This document shows, one piece after another, positions 53,871 to 64,000 of a stretch of 64,000 nucleotides of DNA (positions are counted from its first letter, which is position 1; each line of letters starts with the position of its first letter). The notes beneath the pieces are model-generated. The model was not told the DNA's origin, searched no databases, and was given only the letters and a program-made list of their open reading frames with translations. Location of the stretch: assembly GCF_000735585.1 (NCBI RefSeq), contig NZ_JNNO01000023.1, positions 1 to 64,000 on the forward strand. Reading direction: 5' to 3'. The DNA comes from Devosia sp. LC5 (lineage in GTDB: Bacteria; Pseudomonadota; Alphaproteobacteria; Rhizobiales; Devosiaceae). The translations under genes and the position numbers were made by a program.

Positions 53871-55039
53871 GCGGCGGCGTCATTGTCGGTGCCGCCCGCA
53901 CGCCGGTCGGCAGTTTTCTTGGGCCTCTGAGCAGTGTTCCAGCCCATGACCTGGGCGCCATAGCCATCACCGCAGCTTTGCAACGGGCCGGCGTCTCGCC
54001 GCACGATGTCAACGAAGTCATCCTCGGACAGGTGCTGACGGCCGGCGCCGGCCAGAACCCGGCCCGACAGGCGGCCGTCAGGGCCGGCATACCCAAATCT
54101 GCCACCGCTCTCGGCATCAACCAGGTCTGCGGCTCGGGGCTGAGGGCTGTGGCCATGGGCATGCAGCAGATCCTGTGCGGTGACGCCGATATCGTGGTGG
54201 CAGGCGGGCAGGAATCCATGTCCCTCTCCCCCCATTGCCAGCATTTGCGGGCGGGCACCAAGATGGGGCCGGTGAGCCTTGTCGATACAATGGTGACAGA
54301 CGGATTGCTGGACGCCTTTGGCGGCTACCATATGGGCATCACCGCCGAGAACGTCGCGCGCCAGTTCGGCATTTCGCGCGAGCAGCAGGACGAGTTTGCG
54401 CTCGAAAGCCAGAAGAAAGCTGCCGCCGCCCAGGCCGCCGGACACTTCAAGGCGGAGATCGCGCCGGTGAGCATCGAAACCCGCAAGGGTACGACAGTCG
54501 TCGACGCCGACGATCACCTCCGCCCCGATACCAGCGCCGAGGCGCTGGGCAAGCTGCGTCCTGCCTTCGACAAGGAGGGCTCCGTGACCGCCGGCAATGC
54601 CTCGGGTCTCAATGATGGTGCGGCGGCTTTGGTGCTGATGCGGGCCGACGAGGCGGCGCGGCGCGGCCTCACCCCCTTGGCCCGCATTGCCGGCTGGGCC
54701 ACGGCGGGTGTCGATCCCTCGATCATGGGCACGGGCCCCATTCCCGCCTCGCAGAAGGCGCTCGCCAGGGCGGGCTGGACCATTGCCGATCTCGATCGCG
54801 TCGAGGCCAATGAAGCCTTCGCCGCACAGGCCTGCGCGGTCAATGCCGGCATGGGCTGGAACCCCGACATCGTCAACGTCAATGGCGGCGCCATCGCCAT
54901 CGGCCATCCCATCGGGGCGTCCGGCGCGCGCATTCTCGCCACCCTGTTGCACGAGCTGGCACGCAACAATCTCAGCAGAGGTCTTGCCACGCTCTGCATC
55001 GGCGGCGGCATGGGCGTGGCCATGTGCGTGGAACGATAG
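53867..55039 (+). CDS. Acetyl-CoA acetyltransferase (thiolase)
   Basis: The 390-residue product has the full thiolase set: catalytic Cys88 in [11 protein letters not shown], His in [19 protein letters not shown] and the second Cys in [11 protein letters not shown]. It therefore is a true thiolase, unlike the Cys-less copy at 34629. With the CoA transferase it would split acetoacetyl-CoA into two acetyl-CoA. It also could act in the synthetic direction. Third gene of the operon; ATG overlaps the subunit B stop. Confidence 0.93.
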
Positions 55040-55097
55040 TGCAGCGGGGCGCAAACTCCTGCCACACGTTTCATATGTCGGGTATCGCAGAGACACA

Positions 55098-55232: not shown

Positions 55233-56393
55233 TTAGGCCAGACGTGCGGCTGCACTCACGATGGCTTTCGCCGCATTCAGAATATCGCTCTCTGTGGTGG
55301 TCCGTCCTACGCTGAATCGGATCGAGGAGGCCGCCTCTTCCATGCTCAGGCCGATGGCAGTGAGAACGTGAGAAGGTTCCAGACTGCCCGAGGTGCAGGC
55401 AGACCCTGTTGATGCTGCAACTTCTGGCTGAAGCATCGCTAGAAGTTGCTCCGCGTCTGCCCCCTTTATGTTGATATTAGCGTTTCCAGGGTGCCGAAGC
55501 TTGTGATCCTTGGTCCCGTTTAACTCGAAGTCGAGCCCACCTTGTCGAAGGTAAACGAGGAACTGATCACGGATTTCGGCGACCCTGGCACGCTCTTCCA
55601 TCCCACTTGACGCCACGATCTCGCAGGCGGCACCCATGCCAACACACAATGATAACGGCAAAGTTCCTGGCCTGATGCCCTGCTGCTGGCCACCACCAAA
55701 CAAAATAGGCGTTATCAGCGGCTGTAGCTCTCGAGATATATAAAGTGCGCCAACACCCATTGGCCCCCCCATTTTGTGTGCCGACAGGCTGAGCATGTCG
55801 CATATGGTCGCTACACCTGAAAGATCGGTAGCGTAAGGAGCTTGAGCAGCATCGCAGTGCAAGAAGACATTACTGCGTTTTGAGGCGATGGAAACGATGT
55901 CTTGGATAATGCCGATTTCGTTGTTCACAATGCCGATGGATATCAGCGCAGTCTGAGCTGTCACCATTGACGCAATCGCGTCGGGCGAAACTTTGCCTTC
56001 CCTGTCCACCGCAACCTCGTCAACGGAAAATCCATACTCCGAAAGAGCCTCGCAGGCCGCAAGAACGCTCTTGTGCTCGATTGCGCTCCTCAGGACGCGG
56101 TCTTTCCCTCGTTTCCGCTCCTTCCGCATCCCTAATATAGCAAGGTTATTGGCTTCAGTTGCGCCGGACGTGAAGAAGATTTCATCTGGATCAGATCCGA
56201 TCATCGCGGCGACTTGTTGGCGTGCTCGCTCTACTTTCGCCGCCGCCGCCCATCCGAACGAGTGTTCAATTGAGCTAGCATTGCCATAGCCCGCTTCGAG
56301 CATCGCTTCCAAGACGATCCCATGCATTGGCGTGGACGCCTGATGATCGAGGTATATGCCAGCCAAACTCACCTCCCGACCTGGACGAAGCAT
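55233..56393 (-). CDS. sspA: Cysteine desulfurase, SspA-like (sulfur donor for DNA phosphorothioation)
   Basis: The 386-residue product has the NifS/IscS class V aminotransferase fold with PLP lysine Lys207 in SLSAHKMGGPMGVGAL and catalytic Cys333 in STGSACTSGSLEPSHVL. YLDHQASTPMH is the usual beginning, so the translation start may be a TTG at 56366, which follows GGGAGG, rather than the ATG at 56393. It would mobilise sulfur from cysteine for DNA modification. It is divergent from sspB, a common SspA position. Its GC content is visibly lower than the rest of the window (about 53-58 percent in samples). Iron-sulfur assembly is an alternative role, but the context favours Ssp. Confidence 0.85.
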   Translation of the reverse strand: MLRPGREVSLAGIYLDHQASTPMHGIVLEAMLEAGYGNASSIEHSFGWAAAAKVERARQQVAAMIGSDPDEIFFTSGATEANNLAILGMRKERKRGKDRVLRSAIEHKSVLAACEALSEYGFSVDEVAVDREGKVSPDAIASMVTAQTALISIGIVNNEIGIIQDIVSIASKRSNVFLHCDAAQAPYATDLSGVATICDMLSLSAHKMGGPMGVGALYISRELQPLITPILFGGGQQQGIRPGTLPLSLCVGMGAACEIVASSGMEERARVAEIRDQFLVYLRQGGLDFELNGTKDHKLRHPGNANINIKGADAEQLLAMLQPEVAASTGSACTSGSLEPSHVLTAIGLSMEEAASSIRFSVGRTTTESDILNAAKAIVSAAARLA

Positions 56394-56462
56394 CCAGATG
56401 AGCGTTGACCCTAGCGGGTTGGCAATTTAGTGTCACTACAGACGTTATCCTGAGGCAGCTAA
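56394..56462. promoter_or_regulatory. Divergent promoter region between sspA and sspB
   Basis: The 69-base gap contains TTGACC at 56405-56410 followed 17 bases later by TAGTGT, a weak -35/-10 pair toward sspB. No operator-like repeat was seen. Confidence 0.35.
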
Positions 56463-57434
56463 ATGGTTCGTGGCCCCCTATTCGAACAGGACTACCGTCC
56501 GCAATTTTCGGGTCATGAAACCTTCCCGCTTAAGTATGGCTGGCTGAAAAAGGCAGTAGACGCAGTTAGTTCCAGCGATCCATTCGTTTCAAATCGTTCA
56601 TTATTTCTTGCAGATGAGGCCATTGGAAACTTTGGCGTCGGCAAGAACATGGTCGCCGCCATTCGGTATTGGTCCGAATCGGTTGGGATGATTACGCCAG
56701 CAAATGGCGATGGGGTAATCGAGGTTACGGCGCTTGGCGAGTTGATATTCGGCAAACGCGGGTTGGATCCCTACATGGAGGTCGCCGCGACCTCTTGGCT
56801 CGCTCATTGGCGTCTTTGTGGTCGGCCCAACAGGACAACTTGGTTTTGGGTGTTCGGCTACCTGCCGGTGACTGATTTCTACAGGGAGAACATCTATTTG
56901 GGCCTTACCAGTCTCGCCAAGGACCGCAAGTGGCAGCGCATCTCGGACCCGACGGTAAAGCGCGACGTCGACTGTTTCATCCGCAGCTATGCCTCGCGGG
57001 TGGCCGCCGGCGGCGCGGTGCACGAAGACGAGCTAGAATCCCCTCTCGTTGAACTCGGACTGATCCGCGCCGTCGGCCGCAAGGACGGTTTCCGGATGGT
57101 GCGCGGCGCCAAACCGAGCCTTGGACCCGGCGTATTTCTTTATGCGCTTCTCGATTTTTGGGAGCGGTTTGCGGGTGGGAGTGCGTCCCGGAAGAATTCG
57201 CTATCCTTTGAAGCGATTGCTTATGAGCCGGGATCACCCGGCCGCGTATTCCTGCTCGATGAAACCGATCTCGCCGATCGCCTTGCGGATCTCGAGAGCT
57301 TCACCGACGGCGCCCTGATGTGGTCCGAGACTGCGGGCCTGAAGCAGGTGCTGCGCCGGCGCGACATCGACGATACCCGAGCTCTGGAATACGTGGCCCG
57401 CGATTATGCCGATGGCATAAGGCTCGCATCATGA
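56463..57434 (+). CDS. sspB: DUF4007 protein, SspB-like (DNA nickase of phosphorothioation)
   Basis: The 323-residue product carries the DUF4007 hallmark QFSGHETFPLKYGWLKKAVD at residues 14-33, followed by SNRSLFLADEAIGNFGVGKN and MVAAIRYWSESVGMI. DUF4007 proteins are SspB of the SspABCD system, where SspB is reported to nick DNA so that sulfur can be inserted. The first about 400 bases are much less GC-rich (42 percent in 56581-56640) than the second half. The stop overlaps the next gene by 4 bases, so sspB-sspC-sspD form a tight operon. Function is inferred from family and neighbours. Confidence 0.88.
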   Translation: MVRGPLFEQDYRPQFSGHETFPLKYGWLKKAVDAVSSSDPFVSNRSLFLADEAIGNFGVGKNMVAAIRYWSESVGMITPANGDGVIEVTALGELIFGKRGLDPYMEVAATSWLAHWRLCGRPNRTTWFWVFGYLPVTDFYRENIYLGLTSLAKDRKWQRISDPTVKRDVDCFIRSYASRVAAGGAVHEDELESPLVELGLIRAVGRKDGFRMVRGAKPSLGPGVFLYALLDFWERFAGGSASRKNSLSFEAIAYEPGSPGRVFLLDETDLADRLADLESFTDGALMWSETAGLKQVLRRRDIDDTRALEYVARDYADGIRLAS

Positions 57435-60400
57435 CCCTGATCGACCGCGTCGCCATCGAGCCGCGTTTCCAACGCGCCGTCCGCATCGACACCGACCTCG
57501 GCAATCCCGAGGCCCTGCGCGGCTTTGTCTGTCCGCCGTCCTCGGTGAGTATCCTGCGTTCGATGGCCGAGCACGTGTCCGATACCGGACAGGCCGCCTT
57601 TACTTGGACGGGCCCGTACGGGTCCGGCAAATCGAGCCTCGTCATTGCGTTGAGCGCCCTGATGAACGGCAACACCGCGTTGCGCGACGAGGCCGCCGGG
57701 ATCATCGGCCGCGATTTCGCGACCGAGATCTGGTCGAAAATGCCGCCCATGAAGAAGGGTTGGCGCATCCTCGGCATCGTCGGCCGCAAGGACAATCCTG
57801 TTTCGATATTCGGTGAGGCGATCGAAAAGGCCGGACTGGCGACGGCGCCGGACGGCTGGACCGAAACGGCTGTGCTCGACGCGCTGACTTCCGCTGCGGC
57901 CGAAAAGTCCGACAAGCACGGTGGGCTGCTCGTTTTCGTCGACGAAATGGGCAAGATGCTCGAAGCCGCCGCGCGGGGACATGGCGACGTCTACCTCGTG
58001 CAGCAGGTCGCCGAGCTGGCGTCGCGCAGCGGCGGCCGGCTCGTATTCGTCGGTATCCTGCACCAGGCCTTCGACGAGTATGCCGCTAAGCTCTCCCGCG
58101 ACCTGCGCGACGAATGGACCAAGATCCACGGGCGCTTCATCGACCTGCCGGTCAACGTCGGCAGCGAAGAGCAGATCACCATCCTCTCTCAGGCCATCAA
58201 GGGCGACCCCGAGGGCGACGCCCACCTGCCTGCGGCACATGCGGTGGCGCGCTCCATGTCTTCGGGGCGCATCGACGCATCCGATGGCCTGGCCACCCTG
58301 TTGGCGTGCTGCTGGCCCTTGCATCCGGCCACCGCCGCGCTTCTCGGCCCGATTTCGCGGCGCCGTTTCGGCCAGAACCAGCGCAGCATTTTCGGGTTTC
58401 TCAATTCGGCCGAACCGCACGGCTTCCGGGACTTCCTGCGGCAGACCGAGTCAGGCACCTTCATGCCCGACCGGTTATGGGAATATCTCAGGTTCAACCT
58501 CGAGCCCGCCATACTGTCTTCGCCGGACGGTCACCGATGGGCCGTCGCTGCGGAAGCCATAGACCGCTGCGGCGCCATGGGCGGCGACGACATGCACCTG
58601 CGCCTGCTCAAGACAGTTGCCGTCATCGATCTGTTCAAGGACCGGTCGGGCCTCGTGGCGTCGGACGATGTCATATTGTCCTGCTTCCCCGACAGGTCGG
58701 ACGATGAGGTCAAGAGCGGGCTTTCGGCCCTGGCGAAATGGTCGCTGATCGTTTTCAAGAAGTTCGTGGGTTCCTATGCCGTCTATGCCGGCAGCGATTT
58801 CGACATCGAAGCGGCCATCGACGCCGAAGTGGCCGATCGTCCCGAGATCGACATGGCACTGGTCCGCTCGCTCTCCGGTCTCCAGCCCGTCCTGTGCAAG
58901 CGCCATTACCACCGCACCGGAGCGCTGCGCTGGTTCGACATGGACATCGTGCTTTCCGGCGCCGTGGAGAAGCACCTGCAGACCTACCAGCCGGCCGAGG
59001 GTACGATCGGCCAATTTGTGCTGGTGGTTCCCGACGGCGGCGAGACGATGCCGGAACTTGACCGGACACTGAAAGAAATCGCTCCGAAGCAGTCTGATTG
59101 GGACACTGTTTTCGGTATCGCCTCCAACACCGAATACATCCTCAACCTGGCCCGCGAAGTTCAGGCATTGGGCCGCGTGATGGCCCATCCCGATCTGCAG
59201 GGCGATCCCGTTGCACGGCGTGAGGTCACCGCGCGTCTGGCCGGCGCCCAAGGCATGTTCGAAGCCGAAGTCGCCCGGGCGTTCGGCGTGGTCACGTGGT
59301 ACCACGGCAAGGGACCGTCCGAGAGCAAGGCACTGCGCCACGTCAGCCAGATGGCGTCCGAGTATGCCGATCGGCGGTTCCTCTATTCCCCCGTGCTCCA
59401 TAGCGAGCTGCTCAACCGCATCAAGCCGTCGAGCAATGCCGTGGCAGGTCAAAACACCCTGCTCAAGGCCATGGTGACCGAGGGTCACCGCGACCGGCTG
59501 GGCATCGACGGTTTCCCGGCCGAGGGCGGGCTCTACATGTCCTTGCTGGCCAAGACCGGGCTGCACGGGCAATCAGGCGAAGAATACGCTTTCTTCGATC
59601 CGCGCGAGGGTAAGGACCCGGCACGCCTCGGCCCGCTATGGTCGGCTGCCGAGAAGCACCTGCGCAAACATGCCGATCGGTCGGTGTCGCTGGCCGAGAT
59701 CTATGAGCTCTGGGGCAGAAAGCCGTTCGGGCTGAAGCGGGGTGTCATGCCGGTGCTCGTCATCGCCTTCATGATGACGATGCGGACCTCGCTGGCCTTC
59801 TATCGCGACAGCATTTTCCAGCCCGCATTGCGCGATATCGATATCGACTACTTGGTCAAGGATGCGTCCCTCCTGCAGGTCCGCTGGATGGATCTCAACG
59901 AGGATGCCAGGGAGCTGTTGTCCGGCCTCGCCGACGTCGTGCGCGATCTCGACCGGCAGAATTCGCTTGCCGATCTCGAACCCATCGACGTCGGCCGCGG
60001 CCTCGTCGCCATCTATTCGCGCCTGTCGTCATGGACCCAGCGCACCCAGCGTCTCTCTTCGAACGCCACTGCGGTCCGAGGCGTCTTCAAGAAGGCGTCG
60101 GACCCAAACAAGCTCATCTTCAACGATCTTCCTGGGCTCTTCTCGGCCGGCACCGCCGGGCATGATGCCGTGATCTCCAACGTCCGCGAGGGTCTCGAAG
60201 AGCTGGTCGCGGCCCATCCCGGCATGCTCCACCGCATGCGATCGGAGCTGCTCGCCGAGCTGCAGGTGCCTAATGCTTCGCCCAAGGCCATTGCCGACCT
60301 GCGAGCCCGGGCCGAGAACATCCGCGACCTAGCCGGCGACTTCCAGCTCGAGGCCTTCGTCGGGCGTGTTGCCACCTTCAAGGGCAGCGACGAAGATATC

Positions 60401-60775
60401 GAGGGTCTTGCGAGCCTGGCCGCCAATCGGCCGATGCGGGACTGGTCGGATGCCGATATCGACCGGGCTGCGATGGGTTTGGCCACGCTGGCCCAGAAGT
60501 TCAACCGGGCCGAAGCCTTCGCTCACGTCAAGGGCCGCAAGGACAAGCGCGAAGCCATTGCGTTCGTCGTGAGTGTCGGCGGCCGGCCGGAGCCGATTTT
60601 CGGCGAGTTCGACGTCAGCGAGGCGGATCGGCCGCTCGTGGACGACCTCGTGGCAAAACTCGGCACGCAATTCTCGGGCGCCGACCGCAAACACGTGCTT
60701 GCTGCCATTGCCCGGTACGGGGCGAGTATTCTCACCGCACAAAACGACGAAGACAAAAGAAAGGCGGCCGTCTGA
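57431..60775 (+). CDS. sspC: Large P-loop ATPase, SspC-like
   Basis: The product (1114 residues from the ATG at 57431) has Walker A TGPYGSGKSSLVIAL (residues 60-74) and Walker B LLVFVDEMGKM (residues 166-176). The remaining about 900 residues have no domain I can name. A long ATPase between a DUF4007 gene and a PAPS-reductase-like gene is the SspC position. Its ATPase activity is expected to drive or regulate sulfur insertion. It overlaps sspB by 4 bases and sspD by 1 base. The frame extends upstream to 57320 inside sspB, but the ATG that overlaps the stop is the natural start. Confidence 0.85.
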   Translation: MTLIDRVAIEPRFQRAVRIDTDLGNPEALRGFVCPPSSVSILRSMAEHVSDTGQAAFTWTGPYGSGKSSLVIALSALMNGNTALRDEAAGIIGRDFATEIWSKMPPMKKGWRILGIVGRKDNPVSIFGEAIEKAGLATAPDGWTETAVLDALTSAAAEKSDKHGGLLVFVDEMGKMLEAAARGHGDVYLVQQVAELASRSGGRLVFVGILHQAFDEYAAKLSRDLRDEWTKIHGRFIDLPVNVGSEEQITILSQAIKGDPEGDAHLPAAHAVARSMSSGRIDASDGLATLLACCWPLHPATAALLGPISRRRFGQNQRSIFGFLNSAEPHGFRDFLRQTESGTFMPDRLWEYLRFNLEPAILSSPDGHRWAVAAEAIDRCGAMGGDDMHLRLLKTVAVIDLFKDRSGLVASDDVILSCFPDRSDDEVKSGLSALAKWSLIVFKKFVGSYAVYAGSDFDIEAAIDAEVADRPEIDMALVRSLSGLQPVLCKRHYHRTGALRWFDMDIVLSGAVEKHLQTYQPAEGTIGQFVLVVPDGGETMPELDRTLKEIAPKQSDWDTVFGIASNTEYILNLAREVQALGRVMAHPDLQGDPVARREVTARLAGAQGMFEAEVARAFGVVTWYHGKGPSESKALRHVSQMASEYADRRFLYSPVLHSELLNRIKPSSNAVAGQNTLLKAMVTEGHRDRLGIDGFPAEGGLYMSLLAKTGLHGQSGEEYAFFDPREGKDPARLGPLWSAAEKHLRKHADRSVSLAEIYELWGRKPFGLKRGVMPVLVIAFMMTMRTSLAFYRDSIFQPALRDIDIDYLVKDASLLQVRWMDLNEDARELLSGLADVVRDLDRQNSLADLEPIDVGRGLVAIYSRLSSWTQRTQRLSSNATAVRGVFKKASDPNKLIFNDLPGLFSAGTAGHDAVISNVREGLEELVAAHPGMLHRMRSELLAELQVPNASPKAIADLRARAENIRDLAGDFQLEAFVGRVATFKGSDEDIEGLASLAANRPMRDWSDADIDRAAMGLATLAQKFNRAEAFAHVKGRKDKREAIAFVVSVGGRPEPIFGEFDVSEADRPLVDDLVAKLGTQFSGADRKHVLAAIARYGASILTAQNDEDKRKAAV

Positions 60776-61605
60776 TGGCCCATCGCCATGTTCTGGGATT
60801 GTCGGGCGGCCGCGACAGCGCCGCTTTGGCCGTCTACATGCGGCACCACCACCCCGAGATCGAGGTCGAATACTTCTTCACCGACACCGGCAAGGAGCTC
60901 CCCGAGGTCTACGAGTATCTTGGCCGGCTCGAGGGTGTCCTGGGAAAGCCGATCCTTCGGCTCAACCCGGATCGCGACTTTGATTTCTGGTTGATGCAGT
61001 ACAACTCGTTTCTCCCTTCCGCGCAGACTCGCTGGTGTACGCGCATGCTCAAGCTCCGGCCTTTCGAGAACTGGGTGAAGCCCATGCTCAAGGAAGGTGA
61101 CGAGGTGACCTCCTATGTGGCCATCCGCTCAGACGAGGATTACCGCGAGGGCTACAGCTCGAAATCCGCAAACCTGAAGGTCCGGCTGCCGTTCCGGGAA
61201 GACGGTGTCGACAAGGCCGGTGTCATCGAGCTGCTTGACGCTTCGGGCCTGGGCCTGCCGTCCTATTACGAGTGGCGCTCGCGCAGCGGCTGCACCTTTT
61301 GCTTCTTCCAGCAGAAAATCGAATGGGTGCGCCTCATGGAGCGGCACCCTGAAGCGTTCGAAGAAGCCAAGTCGTACGAGAAGTCCGCGGTCGAGCACGG
61401 CTCCCCGTTCACTTGGAGCCAGGGAGAGTCCCTGGATCAGTTGGCAATGCCTGAACGCGTTGCGCAGATCCGGAAAGACCATGCGGTACGCCTCGAACGC
61501 GCCCGCGCCAAGATGCAGCCCAATCCGCTGCGCCCGGACGGCGAGCCGTTGGACATCGACGATTTGTACGGTCAATCCAAGATGTGTTTGACTTGCCATA
61601 AGTAA
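60775..61605 (+). CDS. sspD: PAPS-reductase/ATP-pyrophosphatase family protein, SspD-like (DndC relative)
   Basis: This 276-residue protein has the ATP-pyrophosphatase PP-loop SGGRDS (residues 10-15) in HVLGLSGGRDSAALAVYM. Cysteines at 88, 173, 176, 271 and 274 (SGCTFCFFQQ, MCLTCHK at the C-terminus) could bind the [4Fe-4S] cluster known in DndC/SspD proteins. The enzyme would activate the DNA backbone phosphate by adenylation and accept sulfur from SspA. It is the last gene of the tight sspBCD unit. An 87-base gap follows before the next gene. Confidence 0.88.
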   Translation: MAHRHVLGLSGGRDSAALAVYMRHHHPEIEVEYFFTDTGKELPEVYEYLGRLEGVLGKPILRLNPDRDFDFWLMQYNSFLPSAQTRWCTRMLKLRPFENWVKPMLKEGDEVTSYVAIRSDEDYREGYSSKSANLKVRLPFREDGVDKAGVIELLDASGLGLPSYYEWRSRSGCTFCFFQQKIEWVRLMERHPEAFEEAKSYEKSAVEHGSPFTWSQGESLDQLAMPERVAQIRKDHAVRLERARAKMQPNPLRPDGEPLDIDDLYGQSKMCLTCHK

Positions 61606-61692
61606 CGATTGAAGGCTCGACGCCGGACTGGCGAGCGTGTCTATTGAGGCAAAGCACTGCCGTGATTGGGTAATCGCGTGTCTGGAGGGGCA

Positions 61693-63486
61693 ATGAACAA
61701 TAACGCGCTGGTCGAATTCCTGGCGGCCTATGGGCCGACCTCGGACGGCAACAACATGTACGACGAATTCGTCGTCGGCGCCGCCGCCAAGGCGGGTGTA
61801 GAACCTATCTCCATTCCCGAAACGAGGTCCGTCGAGATCGTGGATCTGCTGCGCGGCGGTCCCGGTCGATCGGTTGTGCTGACCGGGACCGCCGGCGACG
61901 GCAAGACCTACACGGCCAGGAAAGTGCTCGAGCTCATGGGCGGCGGAGCCGATGGTCTGCAGGAAGTCACGCCGTTCACTGACCCCTCTACCGGACGAAA
62001 GGTTGTCTTCGTCAAGGACCTGAGCGAGGTCGGCGCATCCGAAAAGGCCACGCTGATACCGCGCATGATCGCCTCGTTCACCGCTGCCGATCCGCAGGAA
62101 CTGTTCGTCCTCTGCGTCAATGACGGCCATCTGTTGAGGTCGTGGGAGGATCATCTCGGCGGCAGTGCGGTAGGTGCTGCAGTCCTGACCTGCTTCCGCG
62201 AGTTGCTTCGGGACGACCACGAAATCCCTCCTCCCGAATATTCGTTTCGCCTCTTCAACATGTCGCGGACGTCCCACGCTTCGACCATCGACGCCATCAT
62301 CGACCAGATCTGCAATCATCCGCGCTGGAACGACTGCGACGCCGGCTGCGCTTCGGGCGATGCAGGTCGCTGCCCGATCCAGATCAATCGCCGCATACTC
62401 CTGCGGGAGGGCGACGCGTCGATGCGTTCGCGTCTGCGTGCCCTGGTCGAGATCTCGGCGGCCGACGAGCGGCACCTTTCGATCCGGCAGATCATCATCC
62501 TCGTGGTCAACGCCCTGCTCGGGGACGCCAAGAACGTCTACGCCACCCCGCTTCTCAACTGTGCCCGGTCGGCACAGCGCGCCGACGAGGGCGATTACGG
62601 TTACACCAACCCCTACAGCAACGTTTTCGGCGAGAACCACCCGCCCTTCCGCCGCGCCCAGAACACGGCATTTTCCGCGTTGAACGATTTCGCGATTGGG
62701 TTCGAGACCAACAATTATTTCGACGACGTGTTGATGGATGCCCAGTTCAACGGCGTCGACCACACGCAATACGGCAGCCCCAGCTATGCGGGAAAGCGGG
62801 CCAGCTACCTCGAGAACCCCGCCGAGCATATCGGGGATCTGCGCAAGATCCTGACCGCCCAGCGCCGTCGCCTGTTCTTCGAATGGCCGGAAGCGGCGGG
62901 AGACGCGCGTGAGCAGAGCCCCTGGCAATTGTCGGTGCACAGCTACGGCGATCATTACCTCAACATCCTCGTACCCGAGGACAAGCGGGACGCCGAGAAG
63001 TTCCGCAAGACCCGGTCGCGCCTGGTTAAGGGTCTCAACCGGGCTTTGACCGGTTCGCTGACGGAAACCAGCGACCGCCTTTGGCTGACCCAACCGTCGG
63101 GCGTCTACAAGGGTGCCGACATCCCGATCCTGGTGACCGGACCGATCGGCTGGAAGGGTCAGCCCTATAGCCTTCATCTGGCGCCACCTGCCAAACCCGG
63201 GCGGCCGCCCATGCTCCAGCTGTTGGCTGCCTATCCTCCGGTCGGCGTGCTGGCGGCGCTGCCGCTCACCCCGACCCTTTTCGAATATCTCATGCGCGTC
63301 AGCGATGGTGCCCTGCCCATGAGTTTTTCGAACCAGTGCTTCCAGGACGTGCGCAACTTCCAGATCCGATGCGTCGGGCGCATCCTCGATCGCGACGGCA
63401 AGAACGGCTCCGACTTCAAGGCAGTTGACACGGAAGGCGAGAACCTGGCCGAGCGCTCCATCGGCGCCTTGGAGGACGATATCTGA
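61693..63486 (+). CDS. AAA-type ATPase with a four-cysteine motif, candidate SspF
   Basis: From the ATG at 61693 (GGAGGGG 4 bases upstream) the product has 597 residues. Walker A is VVLTGTAGDGKTYTARKVLE (Gly65-Thr72) and a Walker B-like strand is ELFVLCVNDGH. A compact Cys4 motif, C-x7-C-x3-C-x7-C at Cys207, 215, 219 and 227 (CNHPRWNDCDAGC, then CPIQ), could bind zinc or an iron-sulfur cluster. By position after sspBCD it matches the sspF slot of sspBCD-sspFGH loci, whose products damage unmodified phage DNA. I do not recognise the family from sequence alone. The next gene starts within its stop. Confidence 0.65.
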   Translation: MNNNALVEFLAAYGPTSDGNNMYDEFVVGAAAKAGVEPISIPETRSVEIVDLLRGGPGRSVVLTGTAGDGKTYTARKVLELMGGGADGLQEVTPFTDPSTGRKVVFVKDLSEVGASEKATLIPRMIASFTAADPQELFVLCVNDGHLLRSWEDHLGGSAVGAAVLTCFRELLRDDHEIPPPEYSFRLFNMSRTSHASTIDAIIDQICNHPRWNDCDAGCASGDAGRCPIQINRRILLREGDASMRSRLRALVEISAADERHLSIRQIIILVVNALLGDAKNVYATPLLNCARSAQRADEGDYGYTNPYSNVFGENHPPFRRAQNTAFSALNDFAIGFETNNYFDDVLMDAQFNGVDHTQYGSPSYAGKRASYLENPAEHIGDLRKILTAQRRRLFFEWPEAAGDAREQSPWQLSVHSYGDHYLNILVPEDKRDAEKFRKTRSRLVKGLNRALTGSLTETSDRLWLTQPSGVYKGADIPILVTGPIGWKGQPYSLHLAPPAKPGRPPMLQLLAAYPPVGVLAALPLTPTLFEYLMRVSDGALPMSFSNQCFQDVRNFQIRCVGRILDRDGKNGSDFKAVDTEGENLAERSIGALEDDI

Positions 63487-64000
63487 TGCTGGATGCGATC
63501 GAAATGCCGGCAGCGAGTGCACGCGAGCTCAAGTCCCATCTCGGTGAAGACGGGCGCGGCGCCGAGACTCTGATGTGGGTGCAGGAGCAGATCTTCGGCC
63601 ACCGCTATGTGGAAGAGCAGCTGCCCTACATGCTCGTCCTCGAAGTTCTCTCGATCTGCCGGGTCCTGCAGATCGGGGATGACGGGCGGTCCTATGCGGA
63701 GACCCGTATCTTCAATCAATCCGGCCCCACCCCGCAGGACCACGAGTCGGTGGTGATCCCGATCGTCCGGTCCGTGGCGCTGCGCTACATCATCTTCAAG
63801 GACAACTCCCTGGAGCTGATCGCCAAGAACGAGCGCATCGCGCCTCAGGACCGTTTCGACAAATGGATCGAGGCGCTCAATCGCGGCTTCGCCAACGAGG
63901 TCCGCCTGGGCGGCGTCAATTTCGCCTATCTCAAGAATCGGTTCGACGACAAGTTCGAGGACGTCCGCCAGGCCGTCCGCATCATCAAGGGTCTCGAGCT
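63486..64000 (+). CDS. Unrecognised gene, candidate SspG position (cut by window end)
   Basis: An ATG at 63486 overlaps the preceding stop (TGATG) and the frame stays open for 171 codons to the window edge. The product starts MLDAIEMPAASARELKSHLG and includes MWVQEQIFGHRYVEEQLPYM and VVIPIVRSVALRYIIFKDNS. No motif is recognised. It is coupled to the ATPase gene and so belongs to the same module. In sspBCD-sspFGH loci sspG occupies this place, but nothing in the sequence seen so far proves it. Confidence 0.6.
   Translation, partial: MLDAIEMPAASARELKSHLGEDGRGAETLMWVQEQIFGHRYVEEQLPYMLVLEVLSICRVLQIGDDGRSYAETRIFNQSGPTPQDHESVVIPIVRSVALRYIIFKDNSLELIAKNERIAPQDRFDKWIEALNRGFANEVRLGGVNFAYLKNRFDDKFEDVRQAVRIIKGLE

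Follow-up and report, generated by a model that had tools for sequence, protein, structure and literature searches.

How the phosphorothioate (PT) restriction module SspFGH cuts DNA, and whether it shares an origin with DndFGH, are questions raised by an Ssp locus at the end of a 64,000-nucleotide stretch of Devosia sp. LC5 DNA (hereafter the window), which covers positions 1-64000 of a 295.5 kb contig; features beyond the window are given in the same contig numbering. Read from its sequence, the locus is a complete, canonical SspABCD-SspFGH PT restriction system, and as such it is ordinary, one more intact SspABCD-SspFGH. What is new here is a concrete candidate site for the SspFGH nuclease, in a predicted PD-(D/E)XK domain of SspH, together with evidence of common descent of SspFGH and DndFGH. 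The explanation that best accounts for the whole, to which we assign a probability of roughly 0.88, is a complete SspABCD-SspFGH PT restriction-modification system in which SspFGH would be a remote homologue of DndFGH, and SspH would be both motor and cutter.

A complete Ssp cassette

All seven cassette proteins match their own PADLOC families, with E values from 2.6e-121 to 0, in agreement with the initial annotation, which had assigned the locus to Ssp rather than Dnd. It had recognised a cysteine desulfurase gene divergent from a DUF4007 gene, a large P-loop ATPase and a PAPS-reductase-like protein with an SGGRDS motif, all of which are present (Table 1), and had fixed beforehand on the DUF4007 match as a point at which the reading could be refuted. 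SspB matches Pfam DUF4007 (PF13182) at 1.6e-85, PADLOC SspB at 1.7e-101 and the solved SspB 6juf at 9.9e-34. SspC scores 1304.7 bits with the SspC profile and 334.9 bits with that of BrxC, and SspD matches its profile at 1.3e-137; neither matches a solved structure by sequence. The SspA profile gives 403.5 bits (2.6e-121) with the desulfurase and DndA 398.4 bits (8.9e-120), and among solved chains SspA 6m4j (2.6e-50) is placed under those of DndA and IscS. Since the two profile scores are nearly equal, the name SspA rests partly on the neighbouring genes.

The last two coupled genes within the window had been taken as the restriction module. Both match, SspF at 3.4e-163 and SspG at 2.8e-149, and only their number needs amending: SspG is cut by the window end, and the contig beyond it completes this gene and adds sspH, so that the module consists of three genes, not two. 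SspH scores 1071.5 bits with its PADLOC profile, and its C-terminus matches Pfam FtsK_SpoIIIE at 3e-34. The sspF, sspG and sspH genes are thus consecutive, with a Walker A motif in SspF and FtsK likeness in SspH. Genes overlap by 1-4 bases at the B/C, C/D, F/G and G/H junctions, as a single operon would lead one to expect; the sole gap, of 87 bases, lies between sspD and sspF. No internal stop interrupts any of the seven frames. The SspA cysteine at position 333 is conserved in at least 95% of 25 SspA sequences, and SspD cysteines 88, 173, 176, 271 and 274 in at least 95% of 63, the LC5 sequence being included in both sets.

A predicted nuclease domain in SspH

An SspG alignment, searched against a genome collection of 84,980 species, gave 221 relatives, and the 80 best loci served for comparison. 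The predicted nuclease domain of SspH (residues 986-1302) contains an E, D, ExK, Q catalytic-type pattern whose five residues do not vary in any of 73 sequences, these being 72 loci and the LC5 genome itself; the other 8 of the 80, whose frames are broken or cut and fall short of 1600 amino acids, are excluded. The same five residues agree with those of DptH, the DndH family protein. Fold comparison of the predicted structure, made with an alignment of 41 of the 72 loci at an 85% identity cut, gives modest scores for a PD-(D/E)XK fold.

Other searches with this domain give little. A viral structure library yields no match at an E value of 0.001 or better; profile searches of solved sequences return chance-level rows only, as they do for SspG, and full-length SspH finds FtsK-type motors only. 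Pfam assigns no nuclease family to the 41 domain sequences (DUF5858 appears in three, 5.7e-4 at best), and PADLOC returns SspH models with stray weak matches. Neither a nuclease domain in SspH nor a likeness of SspG to DndG is named in the literature that we found, which leaves subscription journals mostly uncovered, so that such a statement may exist elsewhere.

Probable relationship of SspFGH to DndFGH

The DndFGH proteins correspond to the DptF, DptG and DptH families. The SspF, SspG and SspH profiles each match their Dnd namesake, with hhalign's own probabilities at only 20-36%, and the match of SspF to DptF scores above all of 60 shuffles. The predicted fold of SspG resembles DndG with a second structure aligner, whereas Foldseek gives no match for SspG at an E value of 0.001 or better; a second SspG alignment drew on 37 of the 80 loci and excluded L111, which has a stop in the stretch given. 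None of the three proteins matches the NCBIfam DptF/G/H (dnd_assoc) models at an E value of 0.01, and DptG (TIGR03236) is found in none of 367 genomes of the order and in one of 369 of the phylum.

In the published text available to us, Wang et al. 2021 (PMC8092258) describe SspFGH and DndFGH as lacking significant protein sequence identity, and Jiang 2023 repeats this; a 2025 review refers in passing to sspFGH as homologs of dndFGH, the portion seen giving no evidence for it. The profiles and predicted structures together suggest remote homology, and we infer a common ancestry for the two PT restriction modules. More broadly, it is likely that SspFGH and DndFGH represent a single ancient machine, in which F binds nucleotide, a subunit with the DndG fold reads DNA and H joins a PD-(D/E)XK nuclease to an FtsK/HerA motor, that E1178/K1180 of SspH form the missing SspFGH cutting site, and that parts of the machine may serve methylation-associated defence (MADS) too. 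With a precise, conserved catalytic site and a subunit fold common to both modules, the mechanism becomes directly testable, and findings on DndFGH could be transferred to SspFGH.

Proposed mechanism

By analogy with characterised relatives, SspA would take sulphur from cysteine and SspD would write PT into the host DNA backbone, with SspB as the putative DNA contact or guide and SspC as the ATPase; SspFGH would then attack DNA without the PT mark. Within the restriction module, SspG may be a DndG-like DNA-reading subunit and SspF a nucleotide-binding subunit that senses or uses nucleotide. SspH is predicted to translocate on DNA through its C-terminal FtsK/HerA motor and to cut unmarked DNA with the PD-(D/E)XK domain just before it. 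For a relative, phage restriction and damage to PT-free DNA by FGH are described in the part of Wang et al. 2021 (PMC8092258) seen.

Alternative explanations

A Dnd system (DndABCDE-FGH) with misassigned Ssp names would account for the nearly equal SspA and DndA scores and for the remote relationship of SspF, SspG and SspH to DndF, DndG and DndH. It is very hard to reconcile with the modification half, in which SspB is a DUF4007 protein and SspC is BrxC-like, neither of them DndE or DndD, and SspD scores 456 bits against 25 bits for DndC; nor do the NCBIfam models for DptF/G/H match. The initial annotation had reported no DndD/DndE-like gene, and this stands for the locus, where PADLOC calls none of nine scanned proteins DndB, DndD or DndE; absence from the whole genome is unproven, a whole-genome DndE search being empty with no control giving a signal. 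A type 4 BREX locus, a kind that shares SspB-, SspC- and SspD-like proteins, is just as improbable: SspC matches BrxC at 2.1e-100 and SspD matches BrxP at 8.1e-12, but both score far higher with the Ssp profiles, PglZ and BrxL are not called among the same nine proteins, and the effector place is filled by SspFGH.

If the locus is accepted as SspABCD-SspFGH, it could still be decayed or silent, with defence lost. In the closest relative listed, that of Devosia aurantiaca (L108), several frames make up SspF and likewise SspH, which suggests that decay may occur among near relatives, but with seven frames free of internal stops and with catalytic residues conserved we regard loss of function as quite unlikely in LC5. 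It is also unlikely that residues 986-1302 of SspH are an inactive or structural PD-(D/E)XK relative and that another subunit or a host enzyme cuts. The modest fold scores would suit such a domain, and the published text seen reports no nuclease data obtained in vitro with SspFGH; against it are the invariance of the catalytic-type residues and their agreement with DptH. An intact PT restriction-modification system with SspH as its predicted cutter is the reading that we prefer.

Distribution and gene content of related loci

The SspH profile has a match in 376 of 397 genomes of the order, mostly through the FtsK motor judging by the rows listed; matches above 500 bits occur in 11 genomes only, LC5 included, and neighbourhoods were taken for the other ten. 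The LC5 locus is the only strong SspH match among 12 genomes of the genus listed. A genome of the same family (G443) carries a seven-gene uncharacterised Ssp cassette with the same gene order, 75% identical in DNA over 55306-69123 and 80% over 69302-70482, with no DNA match outside the cassette on either side. As the similarity stops at the cassette edges, the seven genes behave as a shared unit. SspB to SspH are 78-92% identical between the two genomes and SspA only 61%; third-position GC is 0.58 in SspA, 0.65 in SspB and 0.79-0.85 in SspC to SspH. The low value and low identity of SspA suggest that it may have a history separate from the rest of the cassette.

Among the best 80 of the 221 SspG relatives, SspF is present in at least 78, SspC in at least 65, SspD in at least 62, SspB in at least 46 and SspA in at least 25, these counts being minima because many loci are truncated at contig ends or were screened by single-sequence search; three loci with a missed SspC carry a frame of 1140-1400 amino acids in its place. 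Where C, F, G and H are all found (65 loci), sspC and FGH share a strand in 36 and lie on opposite strands in 29. The nearest locus, that of Devosia aurantiaca (L108:3908-17052), is 83% identical in SspG and has an SspC frame of 1404 amino acids with no separate SspD called, perhaps a C-D fusion; its split SspF and SspH frames reflect either decay of the locus in this close relative or errors in sequencing.

A swapped modification enzyme was considered for Bacillus/Paenibacillus loci without SspD and rejected, the gene there matching PAPS reductase in five of five checked (four above the Pfam cut-off, and L131 just under it at 20.3 versus 22.5 bits). In these Bacillales loci (L125, L131, L132, L135 and L138) the SspD position is occupied by a divergent PAPS reductase, which escaped single-sequence search; L138 additionally carries a DUF6997 gene between this reductase and SspF.

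Genomic surroundings

Table 1. Features of the Ssp cassette and its downstream region in Devosia sp. LC5 (contig coordinates; lengths in amino acids, aa)
Feature	Position	Strand	Remarks
SspA, cysteine desulfurase	55233-56393	-	386 aa; Cys333 in TGSACTSG; PADLOC SspA
SspB, DUF4007	56463-57434	+	323 aa; PF13182; solved SspB 6juf
SspC, large P-loop ATPase (BrxC relative)	57431 (ATG)-60775	+	1114 aa; PADLOC SspC
SspD, PAPS-reductase-like sulfurtransferase	60775-61605	+	276 aa; SGGRDS; PADLOC SspD
SspF	61693-63486	+	597 aa; Walker A GTAGDGKT; PADLOC SspF
SspG	63486-65135	+	549 aa; crosses window end at 64000; PADLOC SspG
SspH	65132-70522	+	1796 aa with Met; beyond window; PADLOC SspH
Predicted PD-(D/E)XK nuclease domain of SspH	68090-69040	+	residues 986-1302, numbered from the residue after Met
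FtsK motor of SspH	residues 1530-1713		C-terminal
Downstream genes			354 aa, 207 aa, AAA ATPase, TnsA, TnsB, TnsC, TniQ
AAA ATPase	73518-75545		PF00004 9e-28; HEAGH motif in translation
TnsA (by position only), TnsB, TnsC, TniQ	77457-83332		13 kb beyond window

The AAA ATPase downstream of the cassette appears FtsH-like (M41-type) by its HEAGH motif, and distant relatives of it lie near two of the 80 other Ssp loci (L108:18124-20172 and L149:1-993). Beyond it, TnsB matches Tn6677 TnsB at 4.2e-17, TnsC matches TniB at 1.1e-9 and TniQ its family at 5.7e-11. TnsB has 12 relatives at an E value of 1e-30, 26-32% identical, in the other 346 genomes of the order, where an earlier scan had given none.

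Similarity to relatives of the host is lost at 55035-55040 on the left and regained at 83572-83675 on the right, and the whole 28 kb could thus be one insertion; the two flanks were not seen side by side in a relative and are ~62 kb apart in one (G010). A published survey of Tn7-like cargo, in the part seen, includes DND and BREX among carried defence systems. A Tn7-like element could carry the cassette, but this is unproven, because a search for paired inverted-repeat transposon ends enclosing it found none and the four Tns proteins have no match at an E value of 1e-3 in the 80 Ssp loci with up to 10 kb of flank, where more remote relatives could have gone unnoticed. Just inside the right break (83426-83535), and 13 kb beyond it (96184-96294), lie two copies of a direct repeat of 110 bases, 88% identical to each other, with no third strong copy in the genome.

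Comparison with known systems

The closest characterised counterpart, compared by its published text as far as seen, is SspABCD-SspFGH of Vibrio anguillarum FF-93 (Wang et al. 2021, PMC8092258), which likewise has SspBCD with SspFGH adjoining, a cysteine desulfurase, a Walker A motif in SspF and an FtsK-like SspH C-terminus. The set tested there was IscS-SspBCD, whereas sspA here sits in the cassette. SspABCD-SspE has modification genes identical in kind, and a search of the LC5 genome for an SspE-type effector (GmrSD_N/DUF262) gave no match, with controls giving signal in 8 of 14 genomes.

MADS may share parts of the restriction module. The SspG C-terminus matches MAD7 at 4.7e-11 and 42.4 bits, far under the curated cut-off of 410, and SspH matches MAD8 at 8.3e-21 within the FtsK motor; both matches are partial. 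In related loci PADLOC (E value 0.01) matches MAD7 to the SspG C-terminus in five of nine SspG proteins (e.g. L003:8487-10136) and MAD8 to the SspH motor in six of six (e.g. L003:10136-15523); a MAD7 search of 385 genomes of the class found none, its controls being silent as well. MADS has methylation genes where PT genes are found here, and because MAD7/MAD8-like parts may serve it, a single cutter may have become linked to more than one kind of DNA mark. DndABCDE-DndFGH (DptFGH) differs in its modification half, where Ssp has SspB and SspC instead of DndE and DndD, and resembles the LC5 system in the order of nuclease and FtsK/HerA motor within H, in the DndG-like fold of SspG and in the paired F, G and H profile matches.

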